Positions 840-31,625 of a DNA stretch of 43,426 bases are shown piece by piece (within the stretch, counting starts at the first letter, position 1; every line of letters begins with the position of its first letter). The notes below the pieces were generated by a model. That model was not told where the DNA came from, searched no databases, and saw only the letters and a list, made by a program, of their open reading frames with translations. The translations under genes were made by a program, and so were the position numbers. Origin of the DNA: a virus. The stretch is taken from positions 1 through 43,426 of IMG/VR virus record IMGVR_UViG_3300045741_000487. One strand, written 5' to 3'.

Positions 840-3800
840 TCATCCTCCGCTCGGCACTTCGATGGTCACGGCCAGCACGTCGAGGGGCAGTGGCAGATCC
901 TGACGGATCCAGACCTGCCCTTCCTGGTTCCAGTCGCCTGGCAGGTTCACCTGCTCGCGACCGGTGAATGCTTGCCCCACCGCCGGCCGTCGCGACGGTC
1001 GCAGCACGCCGGCGGCTGGCTCGAGGCTCGGATCTTCGGGCGCCGGACCAGATAGGAAGCGGCCCGATGCGTCGAGGCGCAGCCACAGCTGCGTCGGGTT
1101 CTTGGGCGTGCCAGTGCCGGCAGCGCTGGCCTGCAACGCGATCGGCAAGGTCTTGATGTCGGTGACGAACTGCAGGCCGAAGTGCGCGCGCGTGACGGCC
1201 GTCGTCGAGGTCCAAGTGCCGCCCGTGATGCGCGCCGTGCCGGCAACGCCGTCGGCGCTGTAGTGCACGGTGAGGCCATTGAAGCGATCGAGCCCGGTGA
1301 TCGTCTTCGTGGCCGGGCCGGAGTAGCTCATCCCGGAATCGACGTGGAACGCGTCGGCGTAGCTCGCGCGCTGGTGAGGTGCCGCTCGCTCGACGTAGAA
1401 CGCGTCGCCGGCGCCGAGGTCGCGCTTCGTCACTACGTAGAGGCGGTCCTCGTCGCCGTCCGGGATCGCGCAGACCGATTCGAACGAACCGTCCGTCACA
1501 TGCTGGTGCCACGCGCCAATCTGTTCCTCTGGCACGTAGGTGATCGCAAGCAACTTGCCAGACGCCGTGTTGTTCGCCATCGGGCGCGACACGAACCACA
1601 GCGTCGGCGTTGGGGCCTTCGCGTAGGTCTGCTGGCGGATCGAGAAGCCGTCGAACAGGTGGTAGGCGCGCAAGGACAGATCGCCGGTCAGATATCCCCA
1701 GACAGACTGGTCGAATGCCATCTCGCGAACGTGCTGGCCGCGCGACGAGACGAACACGATCGTGCCGTTGACGATGCTGGGAGCCACGCTGCTGGAACCG
1801 ATGTAGCTCTGTGGCCGCACGCTGATCGATTCCGGCGTGAGCGCGTCGTTGTTCTGCGGTGTCACGCGCAGTTCGACCGTGCTGCCGAGCAAGATCAAGT
1901 GCGTCAACGGAACGGCGTGCCGAATCGCAACAGCGCCGATATTCGCACCTGACGTGACGCGGAACAGGATGCGGTCGCTGGCGACCGTAGGCACCGAGTA
2001 GCTGAGGTCGGTGTCGGTGCCGCTGGCGCTGGCCCACACGTCAGCAGGTCGCAGAATCGACCCGCCAAGAATCAGGCGCTGCTCGAAGTAGGAGACGGTG
2101 CCAGGGAAGGATCCAGCCTTGGCGAACCACTGTCCGGTCGGCGCACCGCCAAGAGCGATCGCCGTCGTGCTGTCCTGCGTTGCAGCGAGCTGGAAGGAGT
2201 TGCCGCCGGAGTTGCCACCAGGCGCTGCGTTGAGCACGAAGTATGGCTTGCCCACCTCGATGCCGGTCGGCATCTCGACGGACGCGTCGAAGATCACCGG
2301 AGCCCCATTGCTCAGGCCGTGCCCTGGCCACACGACAGCGTCGTTGGCGAGGTCGAACGTGATCTGGCTGGACACGAGCAGCGACGTGTCGGGAACTGGT
2401 GCCGTGATCGAGGTGTCGGCGCGCAGGTTGCCCTCGTCGGAGAAGGATGGCGACTGCGTCTCGCCGATCAGGCCGAACAGCCCGAGCAGCTTGCGGTAGA
2501 CGCGGTAGCGAACGGCACCTGGCACCGCGCTCCACTGCAGTGGATTGCGCGCGCCGTCGACCAACAGGTTGTTGTAGACATCGACGACGTTTCCGGCACC
2601 GCTCTCGATCCCATCGGCATCGACCGAGGTGACGCAGTAGAAGTTGTGCGCGTCGACCGAGTTGCTCACCCGCACCGTGGCGTTGGGAGTCGCGCCGATC
2701 CCGGATGCGGTCACGCTTCTGCCGTCGGTATAGGTGCGAAGGTAGAGGTTGACCGTCGTCGGCGCCGACGAGTCGTGCACCGCGTAGAACCCGTCCGGGA
2801 TTCCTTTCGCAGCCAACCCAGCGACGAACAGCGGTTCACCATCCTGGAAGTTGTGCGGGGTCTCGGTCTGCAACTGCACCGGCGGGCCGACGTTCACCAC
2901 CTGATTGATGCCCATGCCGGCCCCTGGCTCGGGAGCAGGGCAGTTCAGGTCGTTGGGTGGCGCGACCGAGGTGCCGAACGTCACGTCGCGGAGCTCCCAC
3001 TTCGTTGCGCCGAGCCGTCGAAGCTCGGCCAGCGGCCGGTAGCGACTTGCGATCTTGACCACGTCGTTGCTCTGCGCAGTCTCGAACGCGAAGAGTTCGG
3101 CATCGGAGTAGTAGTGTGGCACCTCGTAGTAGGCGTTGCCGAACGCGATGACGCCCGAGGCACCAGCGCCGATGTCGATGATGGGACCAATCGGCGTCGC
3201 GGATACCTGGAAGTCGTCGGTGTTCTTGTTGCGCACGTAGTAGTTCGCGCCGAAGACGATCCCTACCGGAGCGGTCGTGCCGGAGAAGATGACAGGGTCG
3301 CCGTTGCCGTATCCGTGGGCGACGAGTTGCACGCGATTCGAGGTCGTGTCGAAGGTGACAGCGCCGCCGCTGCCTGGCACGCGGCACCAGTAGATGGTGT
3401 TGGTCGGCGGGCGTCCGAGGTAGTCCTCGGTCGACACGAACGTCGCGAGCCGCGAAGGATCGCCCCATGGGCGCTTCATGACGACCGCTGCGAACGGCCC
3501 TGGCGTGCCCATCGCGAGATCGCCCGGCTCGTAGGCATACTGCACTCGCATCGGCCCACTGCCCGAATGCGTGATGTCGATCGCGATGCCGGCGAGCGCG
3601 TCGGACCTCGACCTGGCCAGCTTGATGCGCTTCGGATCGCCGGTCGCGATCGCATAGTGCACCGTGCCTGGGAAAATTGGGTCATAGGGGCCGGACAACG
3701 CCGAGAAGTTCTGGCCAGCAACCGTCGGCACCAACGCCACCGAGCAGTTGAACGGAGCGCCGGTCAAGGCGATCGGCGTGCCGAAGCGCGTGAGACTGAT

Positions 3801-4646
3801 CTGGTAGAGAGTCCCCTTCGCGTAGACGTAGTAGACGCGGTTGGCCTCGATCTCTGCCGGAAGAGCGCCGGTCGTCGCGAACGTGACCGCGGCGCCATGC
3901 GTGAAGAAGCCGGTGCCGAGCGAGTAGTTGCCCGTGGTGAACGAGCCGGGAGATCCCAACGTGAAGTTGACCGGCGACAGCGTTGGCGTGGCCAGCAGCA
4001 CCACCGGGGCTCCCGTCGTGAACGCGTGGTTCGCGCCGAACACGACGGTGTCGCCCACAGAGTCGACGCCGGAGACTTCGTAGTAGCTGACCCCTGGTGG
4101 CGTGCCGCCCTGCCAGCCAGCGCCGAGCGTGATCTGCGTGGCCGTGTTCGCGGTGATGTAGCCCCAGCTGTTGCCGCATCGCAGCGTCATGCCGACGAGA
4201 CCGTTGACCGGGAAGGCAGCGCCACCGTCCGTCATCTGCGGCGCGCCGGCGGCTGTCGCCGTCGAGTTGCCGCTGGCCGTGAGCGTGTTGGATGCCGTGA
4301 CGAAGTCCGCGGGCTTCTGGTAGAGCAGCGGCTGGCCGTCGGAGTAGAAGCGGAAGTAGCCGATGTCGCGGCCGTCGACCGTCGACCTACCAGCCAGGAT
4401 CGCGAACGACTGCTCTTCGTTGAAGACGAACGAGAACAGCCGCGGCGTTGAGATGGCTGGTGACTTGACGTTGCCGACGAACTCGAAGCCACCGCGCCTC
4501 GAGACGCCGCCCGTCACTCGCACGACCGCGTTCCGCAGCAGCGCCACACCGCTCTTGCGCTTGGGATCGTCGTAGCGGTCCCACATGCCGAGCGACACCT
4601 CGCCGCCCGACAGTGACAGCTGCAGGTCGCGCTGGTGGCGGGTCAT
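840..4646 (-). CDS. Tail nozzle (T7 gp12-like tubular protein B), greatly enlarged
   Basis: The N-terminus (residues 8-60) has the typical podovirus nozzle signature: LSGGEVS, a polar segment, then a VTGGVSRRGGFEFV motif. The protein would form the hexameric nozzle below the gatekeeper. At 1268 residues it is much longer than T7 gp12 (794). The extra length comes from beta-rich insertions: copies of one module at about residues 244-306, 434-501, 581-638 and 761-840, and a fibronectin-III-like stretch at about 655-740 (VDADGIESG followed by W-x-A-V-P-G-A-x-x-Y-R-V-Y). The conserved nozzle core resumes after about 850. The start ATG overlaps the stop of the gatekeeper gene by 4 nt, as expected for two interface partners made together. 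Which face of the tail carries the insertions cannot be told from sequence. Confidence 0.85.
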   Translation of the reverse strand: MTRHQRDLQLSLSGGEVSLGMWDRYDDPKRKSGVALLRNAVVRVTGGVSRRGGFEFVGNVKSPAISTPRLFSFVFNEEQSFAILAGRSTVDGRDIGYFRFYSDGQPLLYQKPADFVTASNTLTASGNSTATAAGAPQMTDGGAAFPVNGLVGMTLRCGNSWGYITANTATQITLGAGWQGGTPPGVSYYEVSGVDSVGDTVVFGANHAFTTGAPVVLLATPTLSPVNFTLGSPGSFTTGNYSLGTGFFTHGAAVTFATTGALPAEIEANRVYYVYAKGTLYQISLTRFGTPIALTGAPFNCSVALVPTVAGQNFSALSGPYDPIFPGTVHYAIATGDPKRIKLARSRSDALAGIAIDITHSGSGPMRVQYAYEPGDLAMGTPGPFAAVVMKRPWGDPSRLATFVSTEDYLGRPPTNTIYWCRVPGSGGAVTFDTTSNRVQLVAHGYGNGDPVIFSGTTAPVGIVFGANYYVRNKNTDDFQVSATPIGPIIDIGAGASGVIAFGNAYYEVPHYYSDAELFAFETAQSNDVVKIASRYRPLAELRRLGATKWELRDVTFGTSVAPPNDLNCPAPEPGAGMGINQVVNVGPPVQLQTETPHNFQDGEPLFVAGLAAKGIPDGFYAVHDSSAPTTVNLYLRTYTDGRSVTASGIGATPNATVRVSNSVDAHNFYCVTSVDADGIESGAGNVVDVYNNLLVDGARNPLQWSAVPGAVRYRVYRKLLGLFGLIGETQSPSFSDEGNLRADTSITAPVPDTSLLVSSQITFDLANDAVVWPGHGLSNGAPVIFDASVEMPTGIEVGKPYFVLNAAPGGNSGGNSFQLAATQDSTTAIALGGAPTGQWFAKAGSFPGTVSYFEQRLILGGSILRPADVWASASGTDTDLSYSVPTVASDRILFRVTSGANIGAVAIRHAVPLTHLILLGSTVELRVTPQNNDALTPESISVRPQSYIGSSSVAPSIVNGTIVFVSSRGQHVREMAFDQSVWGYLTGDLSLRAYHLFDGFSIRQQTYAKAPTPTLWFVSRPMANNTASGKLLAITYVPEEQIGAWHQHVTDGSFESVCAIPDGDEDRLYVVTKRDLGAGDAFYVERAAPHQRASYADAFHVDSGMSYSGPATKTITGLDRFNGLTVHYSADGVAGTARITGGTWTSTTAVTRAHFGLQFVTDIKTLPIALQASAAGTGTPKNPTQLWLRLDASGRFLSGPAPEDPSLEPAAGVLRPSRRPAVGQAFTGREQVNLPGDWNQEGQVWIRQDLPLPLDVLAVTIEVPSGG

Positions 4647-7600
4647 CGGTTGGAGATGTGGTTCGGAACGTGCTGGATCTGGGGGCTGCGCTGGTTGGCG
4701 GCCAACGAACTCGCGGCGCCGAGGTAGGCGGCCATGTGACGGAGCAGGCGCTGCGACACCTGTTCGCCGGCGTCGCCGCGGATGATCGGGGCGGCGATCA
4801 GCGAACCGAGCTGCAGCGACAACGCCGAGCGGAACACCGACGGGAACTTGCCGGCGTCTCGGATGCGCGTGACGTAGCGCAGCGTGGCATCTTCCTGGTT
4901 GGTGAAGAGCAATCGCCTGCCGGAGTCGGTCTGCTCGATCTGGAACGGTGCGTCGGCTCGCCCCATCGCCTCGACCACGGGACGTTCATCGAACGCCGAC
5001 GGCGAGACCGACTGCGCCTGCTGGTAGTCGTTGTTGGGGTTCGGCGGCAGCACCGCGAACGAACACAGCGCGTCCGGCGGGATCAGGTAGCAGAACTTGT
5101 AGTGGTCGTAGAGCGGCGACGCCGGCGGCGTGGTCGCCGTCAGCACTCGCCGCGTCAGCGCGAAGTCCCACTGCCGCAGCGAGAGCAACGCGTCTCGAGC
5201 TTCGCCGAACAGAGACTGGCACACCTCTGCCTCGATCGAACCGTCGTCGAAGCTGGTCAGCGTGTTGGTCACGCCGATGTGCTTGAGCGCCGAGTTGCAG
5301 ATCGCAAGTTCGGCCTCGAGGTCGCGCTCGTCCTTGGTCATCTCGACCCACTGCGCGTAGATGCGGCGCTCGAGGATCGTCATGCCCTTGCCGGTGTGGT
5401 GTAGCACGTCGACACCAGCCATGCCGGGAAGCGAGGCGATGCGCGGCAAGTCGTCCTGCGAGATCCCGGTGCGCATGAACACGTCCTCGGCTGCCATCAG
5501 ATCCTTGGCCGCGTTCACCACGTCCGAGTATTGCCAAGGCGGATTCTCGCAGTGCGGGTCGATCCACTTGACCTCCTCGGCCGGGCCAGCGGTGAGACCG
5601 CGATCGAACAGTGCTTCCCGGACGGCCCGCTTGAACCGCGTGCCGTTCTCGTAGTAGCGGTTCGCGAGATCCTCGAACGACGAGTCGCCCTCGCCCTGCA
5701 GCCACACGATGCCGACGCACTCGGCCCCGACGCTTCCCTCAGCCGACCACGCGAGCACGGCCGCGTCCATCGTGTCGAGCAGGCGCTGGAAGATGTTGTT
5801 CGGATCGCCAGTCGGCGACCACGACATCATCGCGGCGCCATCGAAGTTCTCGATGCCAAGCGTCGGCGCCACGATCGGTGCCTCGCTGTGGCCTAGGTTG
5901 GTGCCACCGATCGCCAGCTGCACGATGTCGACCTGCTCGCCAAGTGCTTCGGCAAGGGCGACGCCCAGGCCGGTCGAGAACGTCATCTTCGGATCGCCCA
6001 GGCGAGACGGCCCCGTGAACGGTTGGTAGATGCCGCCCGTGATGCAGTAGTGGTTGGGATGGTTGAAGCCAGGCGGGAACGGATTCACCTTCGCTTCCTG
6101 GCGAAGGATCGTGGCAAGCACGTTGCCGCTCGAGGCGAACACCGACGTGCCGTCGATGCGGACGCCTTGGTAGGTCGAGGCGATGTAGGCGGCGGCCGTG
6201 TTGGCCTCGACGCTGTAGTAGCGCTGCCCCAGCCGGACCTTCGGCGTGACCGCACCATCGCCGTAGAAGCGCAGCACCTCGTTGGGCCAGATGGTGGGGA
6301 CGGTCGCGAGAATCGGCAGGCCGATGGATTCGCTTAGGCTGCCAGCCGCCATCTGGAATGGGCCAGACCATGTCGCCTTGCCCTCGAACGGGCACCACGG
6401 CAGGAACAACGCCCACTTCTTCCACGGGATCGCGTTGCCGTTGGCGTCGGTGGGTGGCGTGATCTCGTAGGTGTCGCCAGCGCCTGGCGCGTTCGTGAAC
6501 GCGGTGCCGAGTCGGAGGAATCCCTTCCCGCCGCTGTAGTAGGAGTCTGCCAGCGGCACAGTCTGGCCGGCGTTGGCGCCGGTGAGCGCGGTGATGTAGC
6601 AGCCCGTGTGCGAGCCGACGAACACCTCCTGCAGGGTGACGATCGACGACTTCGCTTCTGCGTCCGTGATGATCACCTCGGTGCCACCTGGAGTCGCCGA
6701 CACGTAGAACGCGAAGTAGGCGTCCTGGCGCACGATCTTCGCGCTGATGGTTGCTTGCGCGCTGAACGCCACGGCGGCTCCGTCCGGCGCCAGCGACAGC
6801 TGCACGTATTGCTGGTCGAGCACGGTCACGTAGTAGTCCGTGGTCGTGTTCAGTTCGGCCGGCAGCGTGCCAGTCAGCCGCACCTTCTCGTTGTTCGTCA
6901 GCGTGTGGGATGTCACTCCGGGAAGCGCGGCCAGGATCTTGTCGTTGACATCGTCCCAGCCCTGCACGGCGATCTCTTCGAGTTCTGTGGCGAGGCGAGT
7001 GACGTAGTAGGTGGCCGATGGCGTGATCGCCAACGGCAGGTGGAACTGGACCGCGACAATGCCGGCAAGCGCTCCGGTGATGTTCACCGGTGTGCCGCCT
7101 CGCGTCGTGCTGACCTTGATGTCGAGGCCAACCGAGTAGACGACGAAGTAGCCGATGTTGAGCGTGATCCCTGGGATCGCGCCGCCTCCGCCATCCGTGA
7201 ACACGACGGTGTCGTTCACGACGAATGGGTTCGCTCCGAGCAGCGTGACGATCTCGGTTGCCGGCGTCGTCGAGGTAACCAGCGCGATGCCGGCGCTCTT
7301 CGTGAATGCAACAGGCTCGCCGACGTAGACGGGCCGCGTCTTGATCGTGAAACGCGAGAAGGTCGGCGCTCCTGCAGCGTCGAGCACGGTGCGGATTGAT
7401 GCGCTGTGCGCGATCGTGTCGAGCAGCGACCCAACGTCGCAGAGACCTCCGCACATGTTCAGGAGCTTGAGTTCGCTCGCGCTACTCGCGGCACCGCCGG
7501 TGATCGGGAAGCTGAACACCTCGCCGAACTCGGGCGGCGGATACAAGGTCGGCGACACCGTGATCTGGTTGGTCGCAGCGGCCCATCCGGCCTGCACGGT

Positions 7601-8137
7601 GTGCTTCGATCCGGTGCGCTTGCGCGTGATGACCAAGCCGACCGGGTCGTATTGCCAGCGGACGCTGGTCTGCAGCACCGACGGCGTCGACCCAGGCATG
7701 ATCGTGCCGTCGCCGGGGAACGTGTAGGTCTCCCCGATCCCCAGGTTCATGTAGTTGCAGGTCGGGTTGTAGAAGGTCAGGAACCGGATCGCGTTGATGC
7801 ACAGCCCGCGCGTGTCGAACTGCTGCCACTTCCCTACCTCGCCACCGTCACTGAAGCGGCCAAGCCGCGGGCCGCCGGCGAACGTGCCAGGCATCGTGAA
7901 CAGCTCCTGGTAGCTGTCGGCCCCCGAGATCACGTTGCGCGGCGCCAACGGGCTGCGGATGCGCAGCGTCTTGTGCTCGTCCTCCCAGGTCGGCGCGTCG
8001 GCGACCGCGGTGGCGTTGCTCTGACCGATCACCAGAAGGAACTTGCGCTTCTTCGCCATGGCCGCTGCTGATTGGTTGGTGGCACCGAGGGTCACTGCGC
8101 CACCGGACGACGGGCCCGAAGAAGGTGGCGGCGCCAT
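4643..8137 (-). CDS. SGNH/SASA-type esterase fused to tail gatekeeper (T7 gp11-like tubular protein A)
   Basis: One uninterrupted 1164-residue frame with two identities. The C-terminal ~230 residues (from about 933) match podovirus gatekeepers: AICNSALKHIGV, TSFDDGS, a RDALLSLRQWDFA block and the C-terminal MAAYLGAASSLAANQRSP helix. The rest carries the blocks of a sialate/acetylxylan O-acetylesterase (SASA, CE6 type): GQSN with nucleophile Ser40, GGTN near 742-745, WLQGEGD near 811-817 and a catalytic D-x-x-H near 910-913. Block I is separated from the next block by about 600 residues holding beta modules (about 292-365, 405-467, 613-677). An in-frame ATG at 5341-5339 could give a stand-alone gatekeeper of 232 residues, but only a weak GTGGG precedes it. 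The enzyme would remove acetyl groups from host surface sugar; substrate unknown. Confidence 0.85.
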   Translation of the reverse strand: MAPPPSSGPSSGGAVTLGATNQSAAAMAKKRKFLLVIGQSNATAVADAPTWEDEHKTLRIRSPLAPRNVISGADSYQELFTMPGTFAGGPRLGRFSDGGEVGKWQQFDTRGLCINAIRFLTFYNPTCNYMNLGIGETYTFPGDGTIMPGSTPSVLQTSVRWQYDPVGLVITRKRTGSKHTVQAGWAAATNQITVSPTLYPPPEFGEVFSFPITGGAASSASELKLLNMCGGLCDVGSLLDTIAHSASIRTVLDAAGAPTFSRFTIKTRPVYVGEPVAFTKSAGIALVTSTTPATEIVTLLGANPFVVNDTVVFTDGGGGAIPGITLNIGYFVVYSVGLDIKVSTTRGGTPVNITGALAGIVAVQFHLPLAITPSATYYVTRLATELEEIAVQGWDDVNDKILAALPGVTSHTLTNNEKVRLTGTLPAELNTTTDYYVTVLDQQYVQLSLAPDGAAVAFSAQATISAKIVRQDAYFAFYVSATPGGTEVIITDAEAKSSIVTLQEVFVGSHTGCYITALTGANAGQTVPLADSYYSGGKGFLRLGTAFTNAPGAGDTYEITPPTDANGNAIPWKKWALFLPWCPFEGKATWSGPFQMAAGSLSESIGLPILATVPTIWPNEVLRFYGDGAVTPKVRLGQRYYSVEANTAAAYIASTYQGVRIDGTSVFASSGNVLATILRQEAKVNPFPPGFNHPNHYCITGGIYQPFTGPSRLGDPKMTFSTGLGVALAEALGEQVDIVQLAIGGTNLGHSEAPIVAPTLGIENFDGAAMMSWSPTGDPNNIFQRLLDTMDAAVLAWSAEGSVGAECVGIVWLQGEGDSSFEDLANRYYENGTRFKRAVREALFDRGLTAGPAEEVKWIDPHCENPPWQYSDVVNAAKDLMAAEDVFMRTGISQDDLPRIASLPGMAGVDVLHHTGKGMTILERRIYAQWVEMTKDERDLEAELAICNSALKHIGVTNTLTSFDDGSIEAEVCQSLFGEARDALLSLRQWDFALTRRVLTATTPPASPLYDHYKFCYLIPPDALCSFAVLPPNPNNDYQQAQSVSPSAFDERPVVEAMGRADAPFQIEQTDSGRRLLFTNQEDATLRYVTRIRDAGKFPSVFRSALSLQLGSLIAAPIIRGDAGEQVSQRLLRHMAAYLGAASSLAANQRSPQIQHVPNHISNR

Positions 8138-9124: not shown

Positions 9125-10003
9125 TCAGATCACCATGCCCGAGGCGTAGAACTTCAGGCCGTCGCCCACCGCGTCGGGCAGGATGTCGACGGTGAAGGCG
9201 CCCGCGGTGATCGTCGCGGATGGGATGTAGCGCAGGTAGTAGTAGCGCTGCGCGTTCGCCGTGAGACCGCCGGATCCTGCGATGCCCGTCGCCGGCGTGG
9301 CGAGTGGCGAGGTGCCCAGTGGAGCGGTCAGGGTCTGGCCGGTCGGCAGAGCCTGGTAGGGCGTCATGCTGGGCAGCGGCATGATCGGAACCACCAGCCG
9401 CGCGCCGAGCACGAACAAGTCCTTCAACTGCGTTCCGGTGGTCGCGTGGACCGTCGGCAAGAAGTTCATCGTGGCACCGGTGAAGTCCGCGGTGATTTGG
9501 TCGACCGTCGTTCCTGCGATCGCGTTGGCAAGCGAAGCCGCGAACTTGAACGTGCTCGAGGTCTGTGGCACCGCGTAGTAGATGGTGTTCAGGTTCGTTC
9601 CCGAGCCACCACTTCCGGCGCTGAAGTAGAACGGCGTGCCCAACGGCAAGCCGTGGTTGGCGATGGTGACAACATCGGTTGCCGCTGGAACCGATAGGCC
9701 GGTGATCGTCAGCGTCTTGCCTGAGGTCGTCGCGTTGGTCAACAACGACGCCAAGATCGGCAGCGAGACCAGCTGGAGCTCCAGCGTGCTGGCGAACGTG
9801 CCCGAGGTGACCGCCGTGGTCACGTTGATGTTGAGGCGCAGGTTCTCGCCGGCGCCAATGTCGTTGAGCGTCCGCAGGTTCTGCGTGAAGCCGGACAGAT
9901 CGAGGGCGAGGGTGACGGATGCCGCGCCGAGGCCGCCGGGCGAAGCTCCCGCGTTGGGGACGACTTCTGCGGTGGCGAGGCGAAGGCCATTGTCGGTGAA
10001 CAT
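9125..10003 (-). CDS. Capsid cement protein, Bbp16-like, with inserted beta module
   Basis: The N-terminus (MFTDNGLRL, then A-S-V-x-L-x-L-D-L-S-G, then D-I-G-A-G-E-N-L-R-L-N-I-N-V) resembles Bbp16-type cement proteins that clamp capsomers in BPP-1-like phages. Those proteins are usually about half this length. Here residues about 104-178 hold an extra module (VTIANHGLPLGTPFYF, IYYAVPQTSSTFKFA) of the same kind seen repeatedly in the nozzle and the esterase-gatekeeper. The C-terminus has YYYLRYIPSATITAGAF, normal for the family. A CGGAG ribosome site lies 7 bases before the ATG. It is encoded directly after the major capsid gene, matching the BPP-1 order. Family membership is moderately sure; exact capsid site is inference. 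Confidence 0.65.
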   Translation of the reverse strand: MFTDNGLRLATAEVVPNAGASPGGLGAASVTLALDLSGFTQNLRTLNDIGAGENLRLNINVTTAVTSGTFASTLELQLVSLPILASLLTNATTSGKTLTITGLSVPAATDVVTIANHGLPLGTPFYFSAGSGGSGTNLNTIYYAVPQTSSTFKFAASLANAIAGTTVDQITADFTGATMNFLPTVHATTGTQLKDLFVLGARLVVPIMPLPSMTPYQALPTGQTLTAPLGTSPLATPATGIAGSGGLTANAQRYYYLRYIPSATITAGAFTVDILPDAVGDGLKFYASGMVI

Positions 10004-13679: not shown

Positions 13680-15449
13680 TCACGCTGCGGATTCCTGTTC
13701 CTGCTGCTCTTGCATGTCGCTCAGCGCGTTGCCGCCGTCCGTCGGCGAGTTCGCCAAGTCGCGCTGAGCGGCGGCGGTTTGGCGGTTCAGCATCACCGCG
13801 TCGCGCTGCGCTTCGGCCTGTGCGCGAGCTTGTCGCACGGCCTGCACGTCTTCCTCGCGCACGAGCATCTCGCTTGGCACGCCGAGCTGGCGGCCGTAGA
13901 TGCGGGACCACTTGTCCCAGTTCACGTTGTCTAAAACGTCGGGTCGTCCGCCCTTGGCGATCGCGAGTGCGCCACCAACGAACCGGTCCACGCCGTTGGC
14001 GCCGGCAAGCCGCTGCGCCTGCGCCAGGATCGACACGAACTCGACCGACAGGCTCACGCCGGCGAGTTCCGGCGGCGGCGGCAGAAGCGCACCGACGCGC
14101 AGCATCTCGCGGAACGTGATGTCGATCATCGGCTGCAGCAGCTCGTTGTGCAGGCGCTCGAGTGTCGGCCCGAGCATCAGCAGCTTCTCCTCGTGGCGCT
14201 CCATCACCTCGGTGGCCGTCATGTTCGAGCCGGCGCCGGCCTGCGCCAGCATCAGAAACAGATCGGTGAAGAACGACTGCTGGATCCGTTGGCGAACGTC
14301 CTGGATGTCCATCAGCAGGTGGTCGAGTTTCAGGTTCACCTCGAACGCAGCGCGGATTCCGCTGTTGGGCGACACCTGGTCGAACGGCAGGAGCATTCCC
14401 GGCTCGTAGTAGGTGATGCCGCCAGGCAGTGCCTCGTTCTCGCGGTTGGCCAGATTCGATGGCACCTGCAACGGCGGCTTTGTCTGGTAGTCGATGCCCT
14501 GGCCCTTGCGCAGCTGCTCCTGCTGCAGCTGTCGCACATCGCCGAGCGATTCCATGCCAGGCGACGTGCCGTAGGTGTCGTCGCCGTCGACCGTCCAGCG
14601 CGGCGCCAGCACCGGGAAGTAGTCGAAGCCGCTCTCGCGCAGAATCTTCGTGTCATCGTCTCCAAGCTCGAAGTAGATCGACTTCCACGCCATGTCTCGA
14701 GCGAGCGGCGATCCGGGCCGGCGCTCGGTGTCGTCGCGCGGCTCGATGACGTGCAGGAGTTTCACCGGCTGTTCGAGGCTGTGGTCGTTCCATGCCTGCT
14801 GGACGGATCGGCTGCAGTTCGCCCAACCGAACTCGCGCACGACCTCGGCCACGCTCTTCTCGAACTCGCGGTAGACGGTGTTGACCTGCCCCTGCCAGTC
14901 CTGCTGCAGGCAATACTGGCCGCAGGTGACCGGGTAGTGGTGGATCACCTGGTTGAAGTCCGGGAGCACGACGCTCACGGCGGTGCCGAACGCTCCCATC
15001 TGCTCATACATCTGGTGCAGCACGCGGTAGGTGTTGCTCTTCGCGAACACCCTGTGCATGCGTTCGGCAGTGTCGTCCAACCACAGTTCGACCGCGTAGA
15101 AGCGGTTGAGGTCCGGGTCGGGTGTCGTCAGCTTGAACCATGGCCGCGCCGGCGATGTTGCGCCTGCCATCAGGCCGGCGCCGAGCACGCGTAGCGCGCG
15201 CGTTCCGCTGTTGTCGAGGATGCTGTTGTAGCGGTCGCGTCCACTGCGATTGCGGTCACCGACGAAGAATCGCCCACTGCGCGGCAGCAGGTGCCTCGAC
15301 ACGTCCGACCAGTGCGCGAAGAACGAGCTGCGCTCGGTCTTCATGGCGCCCAGGCGCTGCAGAGCCAGCTTGCGCTTGCCTTGCGGCGTCGAGATGTCGT
15401 GCACCTTCTTCGGCAGCATGTCGACGCCATAACTCTGGATAGCGGTCAC
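13680..15449 (-). CDS. Portal protein (head-tail connector, BPP-1-type)
   Basis: 589 residues, about the size of podophage portals of this type. Family stretches: SSFFAHWSDVSRHLLPRSGR near 41-60, GLMAGATSPARPWFKL near 91-107, NLKLDHLLMDIQDVRQRI near 366-384, and FFTDLFLMLAQ with the following MTATEVMERHEEKLLMLGP. These are typical of the head-tail connecting protein family. It forms the dodecameric ring through which DNA is packaged and to which the gatekeeper attaches. Start at GTG 15449-15447 with AGGG 7 bases upstream; an internal ATG (MLPKK) 10 codons later is an alternative. The C-terminus is Gln/Glu-rich and disordered. Confidence 0.92.
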   Translation of the reverse strand: MTAIQSYGVDMLPKKVHDISTPQGKRKLALQRLGAMKTERSSFFAHWSDVSRHLLPRSGRFFVGDRNRSGRDRYNSILDNSGTRALRVLGAGLMAGATSPARPWFKLTTPDPDLNRFYAVELWLDDTAERMHRVFAKSNTYRVLHQMYEQMGAFGTAVSVVLPDFNQVIHHYPVTCGQYCLQQDWQGQVNTVYREFEKSVAEVVREFGWANCSRSVQQAWNDHSLEQPVKLLHVIEPRDDTERRPGSPLARDMAWKSIYFELGDDDTKILRESGFDYFPVLAPRWTVDGDDTYGTSPGMESLGDVRQLQQEQLRKGQGIDYQTKPPLQVPSNLANRENEALPGGITYYEPGMLLPFDQVSPNSGIRAAFEVNLKLDHLLMDIQDVRQRIQQSFFTDLFLMLAQAGAGSNMTATEVMERHEEKLLMLGPTLERLHNELLQPMIDITFREMLRVGALLPPPPELAGVSLSVEFVSILAQAQRLAGANGVDRFVGGALAIAKGGRPDVLDNVNWDKWSRIYGRQLGVPSEMLVREEDVQAVRQARAQAEAQRDAVMLNRQTAAAQRDLANSPTDGGNALSDMQEQQEQESAA

Positions 15450-15452
15450 GGA

Positions 15453-15767
15453 TCACCCTAGCAGCGACGTGCTGCCGAGCTTGGGTCGCACCATCGCTCC
15501 GTTCGGACCAGTGAGGGATGTCGACGATGGGCCGGCCAGAGCGCTCTGCTGCTCCGACTGCAGCAGTCCCGCGGTGTCTGGCGATCGCTGACTCGCGCGC
15601 CTGGCCTCGAGGTCCGATTTGCGCATGTTCGCTGCAGCCGCGGCGGCCGCGTCGTTGCTGGCGAGTGTCTGATTGCGCATGGCCTGCTTCTGCTGGGCGC
15701 GCGCCTTCTCGCCCGCGTAGTATTGGATGCCGGCCGACACCAGGATTGCAGCGCCCGCGAAAGCCAT
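15453..15767 (-). CDS. Small portal-module protein with N-terminal hydrophobic segment
   Basis: 104 residues starting at ATG 15767-15765 (MAFAGAAILVSAGIQYYAG) with a strong AAGGAG ribosome site 6 bases upstream; its start overlaps the acetyltransferase stop by 1 nt (TGATG). The N-terminal 15 residues are hydrophobic, followed by an Ala/Gln-rich helix (about 20-60) and a Ser/Thr/Gly-rich tail. Similar small proteins occur between terminase and portal in BPP-1-like phages and may be minor virion components. The function is unknown. Confidence 0.65.
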   Translation of the reverse strand: MAFAGAAILVSAGIQYYAGEKARAQQKQAMRNQTLASNDAAAAAAANMRKSDLEARRASQRSPDTAGLLQSEQQSALAGPSSTSLTGPNGAMVRPKLGSTSLLG

Positions 15768-16234
15768 CAGATCTCCTTCATCAGCAGGTGGTCCTGCGAT
15801 CGGTAGCCCATCCGGCGCAGCACCAGCTCGAGCGCCGTGTTCTCCTTCGCGTGCCATTGCATGCAGCGGTATCCGCGGCCAGCGACGGCCTCCTCGGTGC
15901 GCCTGATCAGAGCCTTGCCGAGGCCGCCGCGCCGGCTGCTGGCCGTCACGAACAGCAGGTCGTTGGCACCATACGAGAGCGATCGGTAGTGCAGGTGGCT
16001 CAGCACCAGCAGGGTGACCGAGTAGCCAACCACGCGCTCGCCGTCGCGTGCCACCAGCGTCACCAGCAAGCCGTCGGCTTCCAACTGTTCAAAGCGGTCC
16101 CAGTCGGGGTCCAGGACCATCAGCGGCTTGTTGGTACAGACCTCTTCGTAGTGCTCGCGCAACAGCTCTCCGCACGCGCGGACCTCGGCGATTGGCGCCT
16201 CGACGATCGTCACCTGGTCGGTTGGTGCGAGCAC
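15767..16234 (-). CDS. GNAT-family N-acetyltransferase
   Basis: 155 residues. The GNAT core is visible: strand VVGYSVTLLVLSHLHYRSLS near 68-87, then LLFVTASSRRGGLGKALIRR near 93-112, which holds the acetyl-CoA pyrophosphate loop (R/Q-x-x-G-x-G/A), and the late block E-N-T-A-L-E-L-V-L-R-R-M-G-Y. It would transfer acetyl from acetyl-CoA to an amine; target unknown. GNAT genes at this position next to the portal recur in BPP-1-like podophages, which suggests a conserved role in assembly or in modifying a host protein. The start is probably GTG 16234-16232; ribosome site is poor, so the exact start is uncertain. Confidence 0.82.
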   Translation of the reverse strand: MLAPTDQVTIVEAPIAEVRACGELLREHYEEVCTNKPLMVLDPDWDRFEQLEADGLLVTLVARDGERVVGYSVTLLVLSHLHYRSLSYGANDLLFVTASSRRGGLGKALIRRTEEAVAGRGYRCMQWHAKENTALELVLRRMGYRSQDHLLMKEI

Positions 16235-16283
16235 CCCAGCATGGTGGTCATCGCCCCAATTCCCGATCCGGTCATCTACCTTT

Positions 16284-16571
16284 TCACCGATCTGGCTTCG
16301 GCGGCGGCGGCACCATCACATGCACCTGATGCACATCGTCTGGAATGGACCCAGGACCCTCGTGTCGGAACAACAACGGACTGAACAGCGGGCCGTCGAC
16401 GGTCGCTCGGTAGAGTTCGTCGTTCACCTTCAGAAGCAGAGAGCTAACGTGCCGAGAGACCAACGATTGCACGCTGGGCAGCGGGATGGCCATGGTGAGC
16501 CCGTCAGCTGGTCCGCCGACGAGCCCCACAACGATCAGGAGTGTTCCGACGGGGTGTTCTGGCGACAGCAT
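16284..16571 (-). CDS. Hypothetical protein following the large terminase
   Basis: A 95-residue frame from ATG 16571-16569 (MLSPEHPVGTLL), preceded by a GAGAGAG purine run; a longer start inside the terminase end (16607) is possible. The N-terminal third is hydrophobic (TLLIVVGLVGGPADGL), resembling small proteins with a G-G-P-A-D-G motif found in many phages, and the end is Pro-rich (PPPPKPDR). No function recognised. Confidence 0.5.
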   Translation of the reverse strand: MLSPEHPVGTLLIVVGLVGGPADGLTMAIPLPSVQSLVSRHVSSLLLKVNDELYRATVDGPLFSPLLFRHEGPGSIPDDVHQVHVMVPPPPKPDR

Positions 16572-16584
16572 GTGCGTGGCTCTC

Positions 16585-18144
16585 TCAGATGTTCTCGTAG
16601 GGATCATACTCGCGCTGCCGGCGATTGCCGCGCAGTAGTGCTCGAGCCACTCGGTGCTTGGGCGTGTCCATGAGAGCGAGCACGTAGGCCGATCCGTAGT
16701 CCGGCGATCGCCCGAGGTCGTCGATGATCTCCTTGCGTCCTTGCACCTCGATGCGCTGGCCGCGGATGGCGAACTTCGGCCCGCACAGGTCGGCGAGCAG
16801 CTCGCGGTTGTCTGGCAGCTCGATCCCCGTGTTTGCCTGCGGGTCGAGGGCCTCGCGCATGCGCCACCACAGGCAGCTTCGCAGGTTGTCGAAGCCGATC
16901 TTGCCCTTGGCCGGCGCGTTCACGGTCTGGGCTGTTGGTTCGCCGACGGTGACTCCGACAACCTGCAGGTGCAGAGCCATCAGATGCCCGTATGGATGCG
17001 CCCCAACGCCGAACAGGTCGAGGTGGATGACGGCCTCGTCGCGAAGCGCTGCGACGATGAAGCCGGCGACGGTGGCGCCGTCGAGGCAGTCGCGGCCTTT
17101 GTGCACCACCGGCTCGTCGAACCACCACCCATGCCGGCGAGCGATCACCGTGTTGTCCCTGCCCTTCAGCGCGATGTCGGCGCCCAGGCTGTCCATCGGT
17201 GGCAGCTTGCTCGGGCGCTTCCATCGCTTCATGGCCGCGAGCACCCAGGCCGTCGGAATCACTTGGAAGGGGTCGTCCTCGATGCCGGCGTCGAAGTCGC
17301 CATACAGCATGCGCGAGCGCATCGGCTCGGGCATGGCCTGCAGCACCGACATGTAGTTGGTGCCCGCGTAGTAGGGGTTGTCGACGACGCGCGCCGGGAT
17401 GAACGTGCGGCTCATCGGCCGCACGATCTTCTCCGCGGGGACCGTCGCCGCGTCGAAGCTGTAGTCGAAGTCACCGTTCTCGAGCACGACGAACGGCCGC
17501 TCGTCCGGCACCTCGTAGTCTTCGTTGTCGCCGATGGTCGTGAACCAGCGGATCTCTCCTGGCGCGGCCGGGTGCGGGTGCTTGCGGTCGAGCCAAGGCC
17601 CGAACATCTTGATGATCCACCGACCCTCGGGCGACATCGGCGGGTTGAAGGTCATCAGGACGCGCTTGCGCTGCGCGGGGTCGTCGCTGCGCAGCCAGCC
17701 GACGACGAACCGCGCCTGTGACTCGCGCACCTCGGTGGCCTCGTCGATGCCGATCAGGTCGTGCGGACGCCCCTGCCAGCGAGACTCGTCGCCTGGGTTG
17801 TCGAGGCCGCCGAACTCGATCAGCCGGCCGTCGTAGACCCACTCGCTACTCTGCGAGCTGTAGCCGTCGGTGCTGCCGAGGATCTGGCCGATGCGCTGCA
17901 CCAGGCCCTTGGTCTGCGCTTTCTCGCGCCGGAACAGCACGGTGCGCTGGTGCTCGGTCAGCGCGAGGCCGCAGATCAGATCGCTCTTGCCCCCGCCGGC
18001 GGCGCCTCCGTAGCCGATGATGTCGGCCGTGCTCGCGCGGGCCATTGCCTGCGGGCCAGGAAGGACGCGCCACGGGCGCGAGTCGGCGCCGAGCAGGCGC
18101 TCGATCTCGGCGCGTCCCTCAGCGCTCAGCTGGCCGATGTCCAT
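16585..18144 (-). CDS. terL: Terminase large subunit (packaging ATPase-nuclease)
   Basis: 519 residues from ATG 18144-18142 (MDIGQLSAEG), which overlaps the small-terminase candidate by 26 nt; the longer upstream frame is Arg-rich and overlaps more. The ATPase domain has a Walker A-like GYGGAAGGGKSD near 44-55, Walker B DLIGIDEATEV near 128-138 and the coupling motif MTFNPP. The RNase H-like nuclease domain shows the acidic strand SLGADIALKGRDNTVIARR and a later VIHLDLFGVG (D pair), then D-Y-G-S-A-Y-V-L-A near the end. It cuts and pumps DNA into the prohead through the portal. Circular permutation of the assembly fits headful cutting, although the pac site is not visible. Confidence 0.93.
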   Translation of the reverse strand: MDIGQLSAEGRAEIERLLGADSRPWRVLPGPQAMARASTADIIGYGGAAGGGKSDLICGLALTEHQRTVLFRREKAQTKGLVQRIGQILGSTDGYSSQSSEWVYDGRLIEFGGLDNPGDESRWQGRPHDLIGIDEATEVRESQARFVVGWLRSDDPAQRKRVLMTFNPPMSPEGRWIIKMFGPWLDRKHPHPAAPGEIRWFTTIGDNEDYEVPDERPFVVLENGDFDYSFDAATVPAEKIVRPMSRTFIPARVVDNPYYAGTNYMSVLQAMPEPMRSRMLYGDFDAGIEDDPFQVIPTAWVLAAMKRWKRPSKLPPMDSLGADIALKGRDNTVIARRHGWWFDEPVVHKGRDCLDGATVAGFIVAALRDEAVIHLDLFGVGAHPYGHLMALHLQVVGVTVGEPTAQTVNAPAKGKIGFDNLRSCLWWRMREALDPQANTGIELPDNRELLADLCGPKFAIRGQRIEVQGRKEIIDDLGRSPDYGSAYVLALMDTPKHRVARALLRGNRRQREYDPYENI

Positions 18145-21665: not shown

Positions 21666-21910
21666 GGTTTGTCTCCTTGTGTCGTTGCTGGCCGCAGCAC
21701 CTCGCCGGTCTCGATCCAGGCGATGGCGTCGCAGTCGGGTTTCCCGTCGCACGCGAACCATCCGTTCCATGGCATGCCGATGCCTCCGCAGACCGGGCAT
21801 GCGGTCTTGTCCTTATCGTAGTTGTAGCGCACGCCGTCGACCTTGCGGTAGTCGCCGCGCGGCGAGTTCTCGATCGGGAATGGGACGCCGGAGGGGAACA
21901 CGTCTTTCAC
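21662..21910 (-). CDS. Small zinc-ribbon protein
   Basis: 82 residues from GTG 21910-21908, overlapping the exported-protein gene's stop by 4 nt (GTGA). Residues 36-62 hold T-A-C-P-V-C-G-G and, after 13 residues, F-A-C-D-G-K-P-D-C, the two Cys pairs of a zinc ribbon like those in phage and bacterial ssDNA-binding or topoisomerase-like ribbons. Partner or function unknown. Confidence 0.6.
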   Translation of the reverse strand: MKDVFPSGVPFPIENSPRGDYRKVDGVRYNYDKDKTACPVCGGIGMPWNGWFACDGKPDCDAIAWIETGEVLRPATTQGDKP

Positions 21911-23877
21911 TGCGGAACTCCCGGCGGCAGCCAAGCCGCCTGATAGGTCGCGGTCGCGTCGGCGATCATCTGCGTCCAGATCGCTCGCGCGGTCGCGTTG
22001 GTCGCGTCGTGGCGCAGCACGACGGCGGGTGCGAGCGGGCTGCCGAAGAGCCAGAAGATGTTGTCTGGCACGTTCCTGCCGTCCACCGCGACGCCGCTGT
22101 AGCACTGCCAGTGATGCGTGGTCGCGTTCTCGTAGAACGTCGTCGAGACGAGATGCTGCGCCTGCACGTAGGCTTTCTCTCGCATCGCCGCGACGCCGAA
22201 CACCTCGCCGGCCAAGTCGAGCCCGTAGGCTGCGACGGCGCATTGCCACGGCATCGTCCACGCGCCCGTGCCCTGCCGAGGATCGTCAACGCGCACGTCC
22301 CACCAGACTGCCGACGCGAAGGTCGCGGTGAACGCGTCCCAGCGCGCGAAGAACCTGGCCTTCACGCGCTCGGCCAGCGCTCGGTCCTCGAGCTCTCGCC
22401 ACAGGTGGACGCACGCGATCGCCTCCCAGCCGACAGCCCTCGCCGCGAACCACCACGACGTGCTGAGTCCGGGCGCGACGGTCCACTGCGCGAGGTAGAT
22501 GGTCGCCTGCGATCGCAACTCTTCCTGCAACGCTGGCGAGCCCGTCAACCTCGCCGCGCACGCGAGCGTGTTCATCAGCCAGTGTTCCACGTCCGGCCCC
22601 CACCATCCGTTCAGTTGCGTCTCGCTGGCGTTCGTCGTCTTGCCGAGACGGTCAGGCGAGACGCTGGAACTCGGGTGCGGCCGACCGTCCCACAGGATCA
22701 AGCGCGGGTTGGTGTGCCGCGCCAGGTCGAGAATGCTGCCGTCAACCTCGCGGTGGTGGTTCGGGCGGTTGCTGTATTTCAGAGCGCCGAGGTAGCGGAT
22801 CAGCTCGACGCCGGCCGAGTTCGGCACGCAGATCTCGCCGCCCACGAACACCTGGTCGCCGGTCTGCGCTCCCGTGATCCCGCTGGCCGGCGCCGGCCCG
22901 ACCGTCCCCGGCTGCCATGAGTGGAGTGCCGCGACGCTCGCCGGCAGGACGCCGCGCGCCCACGCGACGCTGTCGAAGTTCGCCGGCACGAGCGGGTTCC
23001 CGTTCGGCAGCAGGTTCAAGACGCCCGACCCGCCGATCGCATACTGTGCGTCAGCTATCAGGCTTGCATTCTGCGTCGGGTCGCTGAAGTGCCGGAGCCA
23101 TACGAGGGTGAGCGGGACGGTCCTGGCCTGCCCGTCGCCGAAGGTGGTGCCGGAGGGGACGAGCACGCCGGGCTGAGCCTGCCCCAAGGGGAGCACGATC
23201 GCGTCGCCGAAGCTCAGCGTGATCCCCGCCGGCAGCGTCTCGGTCACCTGCGGGACCAGCGGGTTGCTCGCCGTGACCGTCGCCTCGGCGTGGCACCAAG
23301 GCTGGTCTGGATACCACGTCGTCCAGAGGTCCACGACCATCATCTGCGTTCCGCGCACGCGCGAGCGCCAGTGAGCCGTCCATCCCGCGCCGTCAATCTG
23401 CGCCGACAGCAGCGGCAGCGCGGTGCCGTTCGCCATCGGCATGCCGCCGAACCATGCCCATCCTTCCTGCGGGATCTGCGGGACCGGCTGCGCGCACGGC
23501 GTGAGCGTGCCGAGGTCGATCGACGTGCGCTGGCCGGCAGCGAGCGAGCACCAAATGTCGCAGGCCCACGTCTCCAGGCCGGTCTTGCGGCCGACGACGT
23601 ATTGCCACTCGATGTCGCCGTTGCGGCCACCGCCAGTCACCGCGTGCCCTTGCACGGTGACCGGCGCTTCACTGAGTCGCCAGCCGCTCTGGGCCGGTGG
23701 AAGGAAATCCACGGTCACGCGATGCCAGCCGACAAACGCGTTCGTCGACGTGTTCGCGAGTTGGACGACGACCGAGGGCGTCGCGGTCGTCGGCGTTCCA
23801 GTGACGTGCGGAGTCTGCGCGTGGATCGGTGCGCACATCGAGCAGATGAGCGGGAGTAGGTATCTCAACGTGGTCAT
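21907..23877 (-). CDS. Exported large protein (Sec signal peptide), putative carbohydrate-active
   Basis: 656 residues from ATG 23877-23875, with a very strong GGAGGAG ribosome site 5 bases upstream and ATGA overlap with the winged-helix gene. Residues 1-19 (MTTLRYLLPLICSMCAPIHA) form a Sec signal peptide with an A-x-A-type cleavage site. Residues about 25-330 look like beta domains; about 380-656 are Trp/Ala-rich helices (NGWWGPDVEHWLMNTL, STSWWFAARAVGWEAIACVH), the look of an alpha/alpha-barrel (six-hairpin) glycosidase or lyase. It is not in the virion gene block, so it is probably secreted during infection. A polysaccharide lyase/hydrolase is my best guess; no catalytic residues can be named, and a host-surface or lysis role is open. 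Confidence 0.75.
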   Translation of the reverse strand: MTTLRYLLPLICSMCAPIHAQTPHVTGTPTTATPSVVVQLANTSTNAFVGWHRVTVDFLPPAQSGWRLSEAPVTVQGHAVTGGGRNGDIEWQYVVGRKTGLETWACDIWCSLAAGQRTSIDLGTLTPCAQPVPQIPQEGWAWFGGMPMANGTALPLLSAQIDGAGWTAHWRSRVRGTQMMVVDLWTTWYPDQPWCHAEATVTASNPLVPQVTETLPAGITLSFGDAIVLPLGQAQPGVLVPSGTTFGDGQARTVPLTLVWLRHFSDPTQNASLIADAQYAIGGSGVLNLLPNGNPLVPANFDSVAWARGVLPASVAALHSWQPGTVGPAPASGITGAQTGDQVFVGGEICVPNSAGVELIRYLGALKYSNRPNHHREVDGSILDLARHTNPRLILWDGRPHPSSSVSPDRLGKTTNASETQLNGWWGPDVEHWLMNTLACAARLTGSPALQEELRSQATIYLAQWTVAPGLSTSWWFAARAVGWEAIACVHLWRELEDRALAERVKARFFARWDAFTATFASAVWWDVRVDDPRQGTGAWTMPWQCAVAAYGLDLAGEVFGVAAMREKAYVQAQHLVSTTFYENATTHHWQCYSGVAVDGRNVPDNIFWLFGSPLAPAVVLRHDATNATARAIWTQMIADATATYQAAWLPPGVPQ

Positions 23878-31203: not shown

Positions 31204-31587
31204 TCAAGAGTTGGCTAGCGCAGCCTGGTGGTGGACAACCGGCGCGCGGCGGCGAAGCCAATCCTCGCAGGCTGCGATGGCCAGCGTCTGGCGACGCGAC
31301 GTGATGGGGATGTCGCGCATCACGTTCGCGCACTCGCGCATGATCTCGGCTGCATCCTCGAGCAGCTGCGCCGGCAGCGTCCTGGCGATCGGCTGCTGCG
31401 ATCCGCGATCGGGCGGGGCTGGCGCGCGCCGGCGCTCGACCTGTCGCGGATACCGCCGCACCGGGCGCCGAAGCGCGTCCTCGAGATCCATCCCTGACCG
31501 CAATCGGCTCTTCACCGTGCCGACATCGAGGCTATGGCGCCGGCAGAGTTCCGCCAGCGAGATCTCGCGGCCCCGGTATGTGACCAT
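31204..31587 (-). CDS. Small HTH DNA-binding protein
   Basis: 127 residues from ATG 31587-31585 (MVTYRGREISLAELC). Residues 6-35 (ISLAELCRRHSLDVGTVKSR with LRSGMDLEDAL) form a helix-turn-helix closely similar to sigma region 4.2-type and to a common phage HTH. The C-terminal part is Pro/Arg-rich then helical (LLEDAAEIMRECANVMRDIP). A longer in-frame extension to 31686 overlaps the end of the giant gene and is rejected. It could regulate early genes or provide a separate DNA-binding module to the sigma-like protein; the latter is speculation. Confidence 0.6.
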   Translation of the reverse strand: MVTYRGREISLAELCRRHSLDVGTVKSRLRSGMDLEDALRRPVRRYPRQVERRRAPAPPDRGSQQPIARTLPAQLLEDAAEIMRECANVMRDIPITSRRQTLAIAACEDWLRRRAPVVHHQAALANS

Positions 31588-31625
31588 CCGAGCGTGCACG
31601 TCGGCGCGCGATGCTACTGGCCGGT

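Follow-up and report, generated by a model that had tools for sequence, protein, structure and literature searches.

A gatekeeper with a fused SGNH-esterase domain in a BPP-1-like podovirus: a possible adsorption collar at the tail neck

Fibers and spikes of podoviruses are normally separate proteins docked between the nozzle and the gatekeeper, the ring protein that joins the phage head and tail. The 43426-base record of an uncultivated IMG/VR virus (IMGVR_UViG_3300045741_000487; this whole stretch is hereafter the window) raises the question of what an esterase domain might do when it is part of the gatekeeper chain itself. The gene concerned, at positions 4643-8137 on the minus strand, is a single frame of 1164 codons with no internal stop and coding-like G+C fractions at the three codon positions (0.60/0.49/0.87, the third being strong); its delineation draws on the open reading frame, the PHROG 394 and PF03629 matches and its recurrence in 18 records. 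Each half of the encoded chain belongs to a known family and their union is the new part: in the PMC literature, as judged by titles and the starts of abstracts and with subscription papers and bioRxiv outside the scope, we recognized no report of a gatekeeper and an esterase in one chain.

The C-terminal end of the protein is the gatekeeper, or head-tail adaptor. PHROG 394 (tail protein) matches residues 943-1162 (positions 4652-5311, minus strand) with E 7.4e-32 and is covered from 4 to 186 of its 190 positions, that is, over the whole podovirus gatekeeper domain. In the predicted structure, residues 941-1161 adopt the adaptor fold, superposing on the connector of Cobetia phage Carin1 (8ck1_E; VIA Z 20.8, root-mean-square deviation [rmsd] 4.4, 199 aligned residues; Foldseek E 2.4e-13). 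The Carin1 connector, T7 gp11 and KP32 TTPA (5mu4) share this fold, and differ in being chains of about 180-220 residues without a fused esterase domain. The gene also overlaps by 4 nucleotides the nozzle gene (840-4646, minus strand; 1268 residues; PHROG 376, E 2e-123), which puts the gatekeeper directly before the nozzle. The nearest characterized counterpart is bbp14 of BPP-1, which is of the same gatekeeper family (32.6% identity) and lies in the same surrounding gene order; unlike the window protein, it is 223 residues long and lacks an N-terminal domain, and BPP-1 encodes bbp9 and Mtd as separate fiber genes.

The N-terminal part is an esterase of the SGNH fold. The SASA family PF03629 matches residues 732-844 (29.2 bits, E 8.7e-7), exceeding the curated threshold of 24.8 bits, which several homologous fusions fail to reach. 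Three blocks can be read in the chain, all on the minus strand: GQSN at residues 38-41 (8015-8026), with the nucleophile Ser40 at the end of a predicted strand spanning 31-39, QGEGD at 814-818 (5684-5698) and DVLHH at 910-914 (5396-5410), which supplies Asp910 and His913. They correspond to GQS(N)/QGExD/DxxH, which we take to be the catalytic motif set of the SASA/CE6 esterases. Structural comparison with VIA places the esterase part on 2apj (Z 17.7, rmsd 2.7, 189 residues), 1zmb (Z 16.4) and NanS 3pt5 (Z 15.0), CE6/SASA esterases that share the fold and have no gatekeeper fusion, as well as on the tailspike of Pan3 (9vyh; Z 18.3, 233 residues, rmsd 3.7), which is alike in fold only; the N4 tail chain 9yf5_LA gives Z 14.3. 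The original prediction, made from the sequence alone, had described an esterase frame ending in a gatekeeper and a full SASA/CE6-type motif set, and had proposed structure prediction as a check; the fusion, the esterase type and the motif set hold, and in the structure search the two halves fall on the Carin1 connector and on the CE6/NanS esterases. It had missed that about 680 residues (42-720; positions 5978-8014, minus strand; predicted local distance difference test [pLDDT] mostly <50) are inserted within the esterase fold and separate GQSN from the remaining SGNH/CE6 alpha/beta core (residues 720-935; 5333-5980, minus strand), which is delimited by PF03629, the AlphaFold2 model and the fold matches.

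This insert holds copies of a beta-type module of about 85 residues, of which the nozzle has three copies and a 292-residue protein encoded after the major capsid protein (9125-10003, minus strand) has one. Five copies served as seeds for the module model: one from the gatekeeper insert, the three clear copies of the nozzle and that of the post-capsid protein. The seed copy of the insert lies at residues 280-369 (7031-7300, minus strand; independent E-value 7e-31), and weaker further copies lie at residues 406-507 (6617-6922, minus strand; independent E-values 9.4e-5 and 2.8e-3). Matches in five further records, to which we refer by survey labels as G009, G010, G043, G054 and G063, do not depend on these seeds. 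The nozzle itself has an insertion of about 540 residues where bbp13 of BPP-1 has about 60. In searches with the window protein, the loci L018, L023 and L037 matched its insert part only, as did the locus L236 (residues 259-354); all four were rejected as esterase matches and taken as matches to the module in neighboring genes.

How widely is the fusion distributed? Both halves are found in 18 IMG/VR records, counting the window itself, some of them near copies (L199/L202 95%, L204/L206 95%, L200/L201 89%); because of this recurrence the fusion is not an assembly artifact. Different searches contributed to this set. A portal search yielded 80 loci, and a gatekeeper was matched in 24 of the 38 records checked, comprising four fused (G001, G009, G010, G022), 17 unfused and three in frames cut by the contig (G027, G032, G036). 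Querying with three aligned fused proteins retrieved 16 loci, 13 with one-frame fusions and three ending before the gatekeeper. A capsid search (80 loci) gave six loci with a capsid protein at least 73% like that of the window, the next being at 66%; five of the six are fused and in the sixth the contig ends before the gene. Searching with a separate 656-residue protein of the window, discussed below, added G054 (capsid protein 42%) and G063 (68%). Across the 83 loci surveyed, a gatekeeper is present in 69, of which 65 are unfused, three are known esterase fusions and one is another kind of fusion (L236). Not all relatives are intact: in G010 the fused gene lies at the contig start; in G043 an N-terminal piece sits at one contig end and a frame with a 679-residue esterase core plus gatekeeper at the other, the two being inferred to be one gene; and in G022 the gatekeeper frame starts inside the esterase core, immediately preceded, at the contig end and in a different frame, by a stretch like the window esterase.

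The portal and capsid searches are free of a bias that led us to set aside a first gatekeeper survey (80/80 unfused), one of whose two search patterns contains the initiator methionine of unfused proteins. Among the matches listed in the GenBank phage set, 0/89 for the window protein, 0/55 for G010 and 0/108 for the partial G022 cover 80% of the query; the whole window protein as query gave no match among viral contigs, and no fused relative was found in genome contigs. A capsid search of the latter returned 17 loci, all from bacterial genomes by title and 15 of them from Pseudomonadota, with gatekeeper matches in 16, all unfused. No stand-alone esterase gene was seen beside an unfused gatekeeper in the loci examined, the stretch around each match being limited.

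The catalytic residues are not uniformly conserved across the fused proteins. Among 17 readable records, Ser and His are both kept in seven (the window, G009, G010, G043, G054, G063 and L209), both lost in nine (L199, L200, L201, L202, L203, L204, L206, L207 and L208), and in one (L198) Ser only is lost, the domain being retained despite these losses; Fisher's test for the co-loss of Ser and His gives p=0.0004 with relatedness not corrected for. Outside the 17, G022 keeps His with no visible Ser, and the truncated L210, L211 and L212 lack Ser. In a gatekeeper tree with all 18 fused rows, both fusions of another kind (see below) and 32 of the 63 unfused rows, the window and 13 other fusions form one clade (support 100/99), with a long branch for the window (1.01). 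L209 groups with G063 (97/84), the placements of G022 and G054 are unsettled, and the tree is compatible with a single origin of the esterase fusion without requiring one. The rows without Ser fall into a single nested clade (96/91), from the rest of which the His-retaining L198 branches first (99/97). This nesting looks like a single loss, after which the domain long persisted, rather than many independent losses. Since nine of the 17 lack both catalytic residues, deacetylase activity cannot be the general reason for which the fusion is maintained.

Taking these observations together, we lean toward the interpretation that the product of 4643-8137 is a BPP-1-like podovirus gatekeeper whose N-terminal SGNH domain forms a ring-mounted adsorption collar at the tail neck. 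In T7, gp11 is a dodecameric ring between the portal and the nozzle, and the fibers dock between this adaptor and the nozzle, as described in PMC6702177. By analogy, an SGNH (SASA/CE6-type) domain interrupted by module-type insertions and joined to the gatekeeper N-terminus would be displayed by the gatekeeper ring, 12-fold in T7, as a collar of esterase domains and adhesion modules. This collar would hold a glycan of the host surface and, where the catalytic residues persist, as in this genome, would strip O-acetyl groups during adsorption. In the window the collar, perhaps along with the enlarged nozzle, might be the main adsorption device, and elsewhere it would work beside a fiber. What can be read from the sequences is that the two halves are fused, that the fusion recurs, and that the motifs are intact in the window and lost in a sister clade; the twelve copies and the deacetylase activity are extrapolated from related structures. 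Because the domain is kept where the catalytic residues are lost, glycan binding is favored, with deacetylation as an option: as the function shared by the fused members, binding is more probable than catalysis, and the best reading of the motifs is that the esterase of the window is catalytically competent and that of the sister clade a pure binder.

Esterase or esterase-like domains on short tails have precedents in Moo19 gp82, B2 gp48/gp49, G7C and DEV gp53, which the sources describe as tied to adsorption (PMC11654681, PMC10925440); for DEV gp53, an esterase-like domain on a fiber, lipopolysaccharide hydrolase activity was reported as not detected in virions (PMC10925440). KP32 TTPA, one of the adaptors resembling the window gatekeeper, has been reported as active on a capsule saccharide (PMC5440376). 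The spikes and fibers of Moo19, B2, G7C, DEV and Pan3 are separate proteins docked to the tail, whereas the window domain resides in the gatekeeper chain; without being a separate tailspike or receptor-binding protein, it may act like one. If the collar exists, its host-surface domain would have a fixed copy number and binding could couple directly to the part that retains the genome. A domain built into the gatekeeper could also escape receptor-binding predictors that seek separate fiber genes, and the loss of catalytic residues in one clade would offer a natural test of binding versus catalysis in phage esterases.

The gatekeeper N-terminus carries other cargo too. The phage ctRVW222 (MW202478) has a 652-residue gatekeeper with N-terminal additions as in the window, made up of TTFT-type repeats (by eye) rather than an esterase; it encodes a separate annotated tail fiber besides. 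L236 (IMGVR_UViG_3300037488_000075, 4208-6376) encodes a 722-residue gatekeeper whose 515 N-terminal residues are likewise not an esterase and appear beta-helix-like by eye; outside the gatekeeper it has no Pfam or PHROG match, and PDB sequence matches are none better than E 0.7. In the gatekeeper tree, both fall outside the main esterase clade. Such proteins suggest that the N-terminus may serve generally as a place to mount added parts. We can go further, to a proposition that falls a little short of an even chance: that this mount has been repeatedly loaded with host-surface modules (SGNH esterase, pseudo-esterase, repeats and a possible beta-helix), with a permanent collar replacing docked fibers and one lineage becoming a pure binder.

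Several considerations weigh against the adsorption collar. First, the AlphaFold2 model of the whole fused protein (38 rows) is weak overall, with a mean pLDDT of 51.6 and a predicted template-modeling score (pTM) of 0.46; its confident parts are the esterase core and the gatekeeper, residues 42-720 are mostly unmodeled, and pLDDT is <50 at residues 895-912, giving low confidence at the DVLHH motif. Second, the presence of the fused product in virions and its activity are presumed. Third, since in T7 it is the helix 1-helix 2 loop of the adaptor that touches the nozzle (PMC6702177), the gatekeeper N-terminus may point toward the portal or capsid, where a large domain would perhaps be crowded. 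Fourth, the fused genome G009 encodes, after its portal gene, a separate 300-residue fiber-like protein (PF22237, E 6.4e-16, with weak matches to tail fiber PHROGs). Fifth, the 656-residue protein of the window could be the real surface enzyme.

The last two points lead to the best surviving alternative, which we regard as unlikely while giving it real weight: that the esterase is an accessory enzyme and the true receptor-binding protein is separate, be it the 656-residue protein, the enlarged nozzle with its insertion of about 540 residues or an unrecognized gene. Besides the fiber-like gene of G009, G010 and G043 encode proteins of 670 and 407 residues that have no family match of note and are fiber-like by eye. 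The 656-residue protein (21907-23877, minus strand) has a carbohydrate-enzyme-like fold and, by eye, a signal-peptide-like N-terminus. Its predicted model (pLDDT 79.8, pTM 0.85) aligns over residues 29-656 with the PL26 exo-rhamnogalacturonan lyase 5xqg_C (VIA Z 11.5, rmsd 4.7, 503 aligned), unrelated toroids such as complement C4 reaching an equal Z; Foldseek gives nothing at E 0.001 (best 2.4e-3, with the PL26 row at 2.2e-2), and Pfam gives no match for the protein. The tie between toroids and PL26 and the best Foldseek value indicate the (alpha/alpha)-toroid fold class and no particular family. The protein has to be taken seriously as a candidate separate surface enzyme that could serve adsorption, and its relatives are found in five more of the fused genomes (G009, G010, G043, G054 and G063). 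Against such a role, its support extends to the fold class only and its place in the virion is putative, while nine of the 11 searched records among the 19 viral-contig loci of its family have no gatekeeper match, some of them perhaps being fragments. Additionally, L233:355-2049 (G039) encodes a 564-residue lipoprotein-like protein after the portal gene, at the site of the fiber-like genes in fused relatives; its resemblance to the 656-residue family is weak, at 24% identity over 254 residues to the G009 member (E 2.5e-4) and with no family-profile match.

A further point against a separate receptor-binding protein is that no fiber is recognizable in the window. The gene order is that of BPP-1 (terminase, GNAT, portal, protease, capsid protein, gatekeeper, nozzle, internal proteins and giant protein), and the portal is 55% identical to that of BPP-1. 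BPP-1 has bbp9 and the receptor-binding mtd after its giant gene; in the window an HNH gene takes that place, directly after the giant ejection-type gene (the two together 31204-41273, minus strand), and a gene related to the HNH gene likewise follows the giant gene in G009, G010 and G043. A tblastn search of the circularized window with Mtd, bbp9, the ctRVW222 fiber and the fiber-like proteins of G009, G010 and G043 gave no match at E 1e-2 or better, a search that a novel fiber type would escape. The original prediction had noted that no separate fiber gene is visible, in line with these results, and had suggested that twelve copies of a deacetylase may replace it. Given the lack of a recognizable fiber here, alongside the 656-residue protein and the fiber-like gene of G009, such replacement is possible in the window and is not general among the fused relatives; the nine of 17 records without both catalytic residues likewise speak against a deacetylase collar as the rule.

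A second alternative, which we consider improbable, is that two products arise: translation from an internal start at position 5341, or proteolytic cleavage of the chain, would give a gatekeeper of about 232 residues along with a free or sparsely mounted esterase. The in-frame ATG at 5341 does exist, as had been predicted: it is M933, just before the gatekeeper domain and near the start of unfused relatives. It is preceded by GTGGGTCGAG, at best a weak Shine-Dalgarno-like stretch, with the weak purine stretch GTGGG five bases before the ATG. As the sequences upstream of 8137, 8059 and 4646 contain none that is clearly better, the choice of start is not decided by these stretches. Against internal initiation, the ATG is not conserved: in the 15 other fused genes examined, the 12 codons that precede the gatekeeper start never include an ATG. 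Widening the stretch to 35 codons brings one to light in five of the 15, and over that distance L202 lacks start codons of every kind. This conservation test is not final, because GTG or TTG codons occur near the fusion junction in several fused genes. Nor is a long linker predicted at the joint: the last esterase helix (916-933) runs into the gatekeeper helix (937-954) with three residues between. The relatives, too, keep the fusion as one frame.

Marginally less probable still is that the domain is retained as a structural or docking part, such as a neck ornament or a contact in assembly or with the capsid, rather than for binding the host. A whole clade keeps the domain without its catalytic residues, and the geometry of the T7 adaptor helices (PMC6702177) would suit this view. 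However, 118 of 123 gatekeeper-bearing loci do without any such added part, with the limit that 80 of these 123 come from the survey biased to unfused proteins, and the same modules recur in the nozzle and the post-capsid protein. These alternatives and the adsorption collar are not mutually exclusive. Finally, an assembly chimera or a lost stop codon, which the metagenomic origin of the record might suggest, is in practice refuted by the 13 of 16 loci with one-frame fusions from different IMG/VR records and the further cases, and is barely credible.

As for the remainder of the genome, a direct end repeat of 104 nucleotides (99%; 1-104 and 43323-43426) lies within a frame that crosses the record ends (41270-43426 plus 1-200); on account of this repeat the record is probably a complete genome, circular or permuted. 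The N-terminal half of the giant protein (31626-41273, minus strand; 3215 residues) contains LPD22, RadC-like JAB and DUF7178 domains, and the C-terminal half matches PHROG 9880. By eye, the small genes that follow the portal gene appear lysis-like. In L189 (IMGVR_UViG_3300037506_000169), which corresponds to the fused relative G010, an open reading frame at 14565-16916 on the minus strand contains a Cas12f1-like TNB domain (PF07282, E 3.6e-10), and inside its 3' end (about 14613-15097) lies a CRISPR-like array of six well-matched repeats of about 36 nucleotides and one degenerate repeat, spaced 65-82 nucleotides apart; frame and array are possibly a phage-borne compact CRISPR unit of the Cas12/TnpB-like type.

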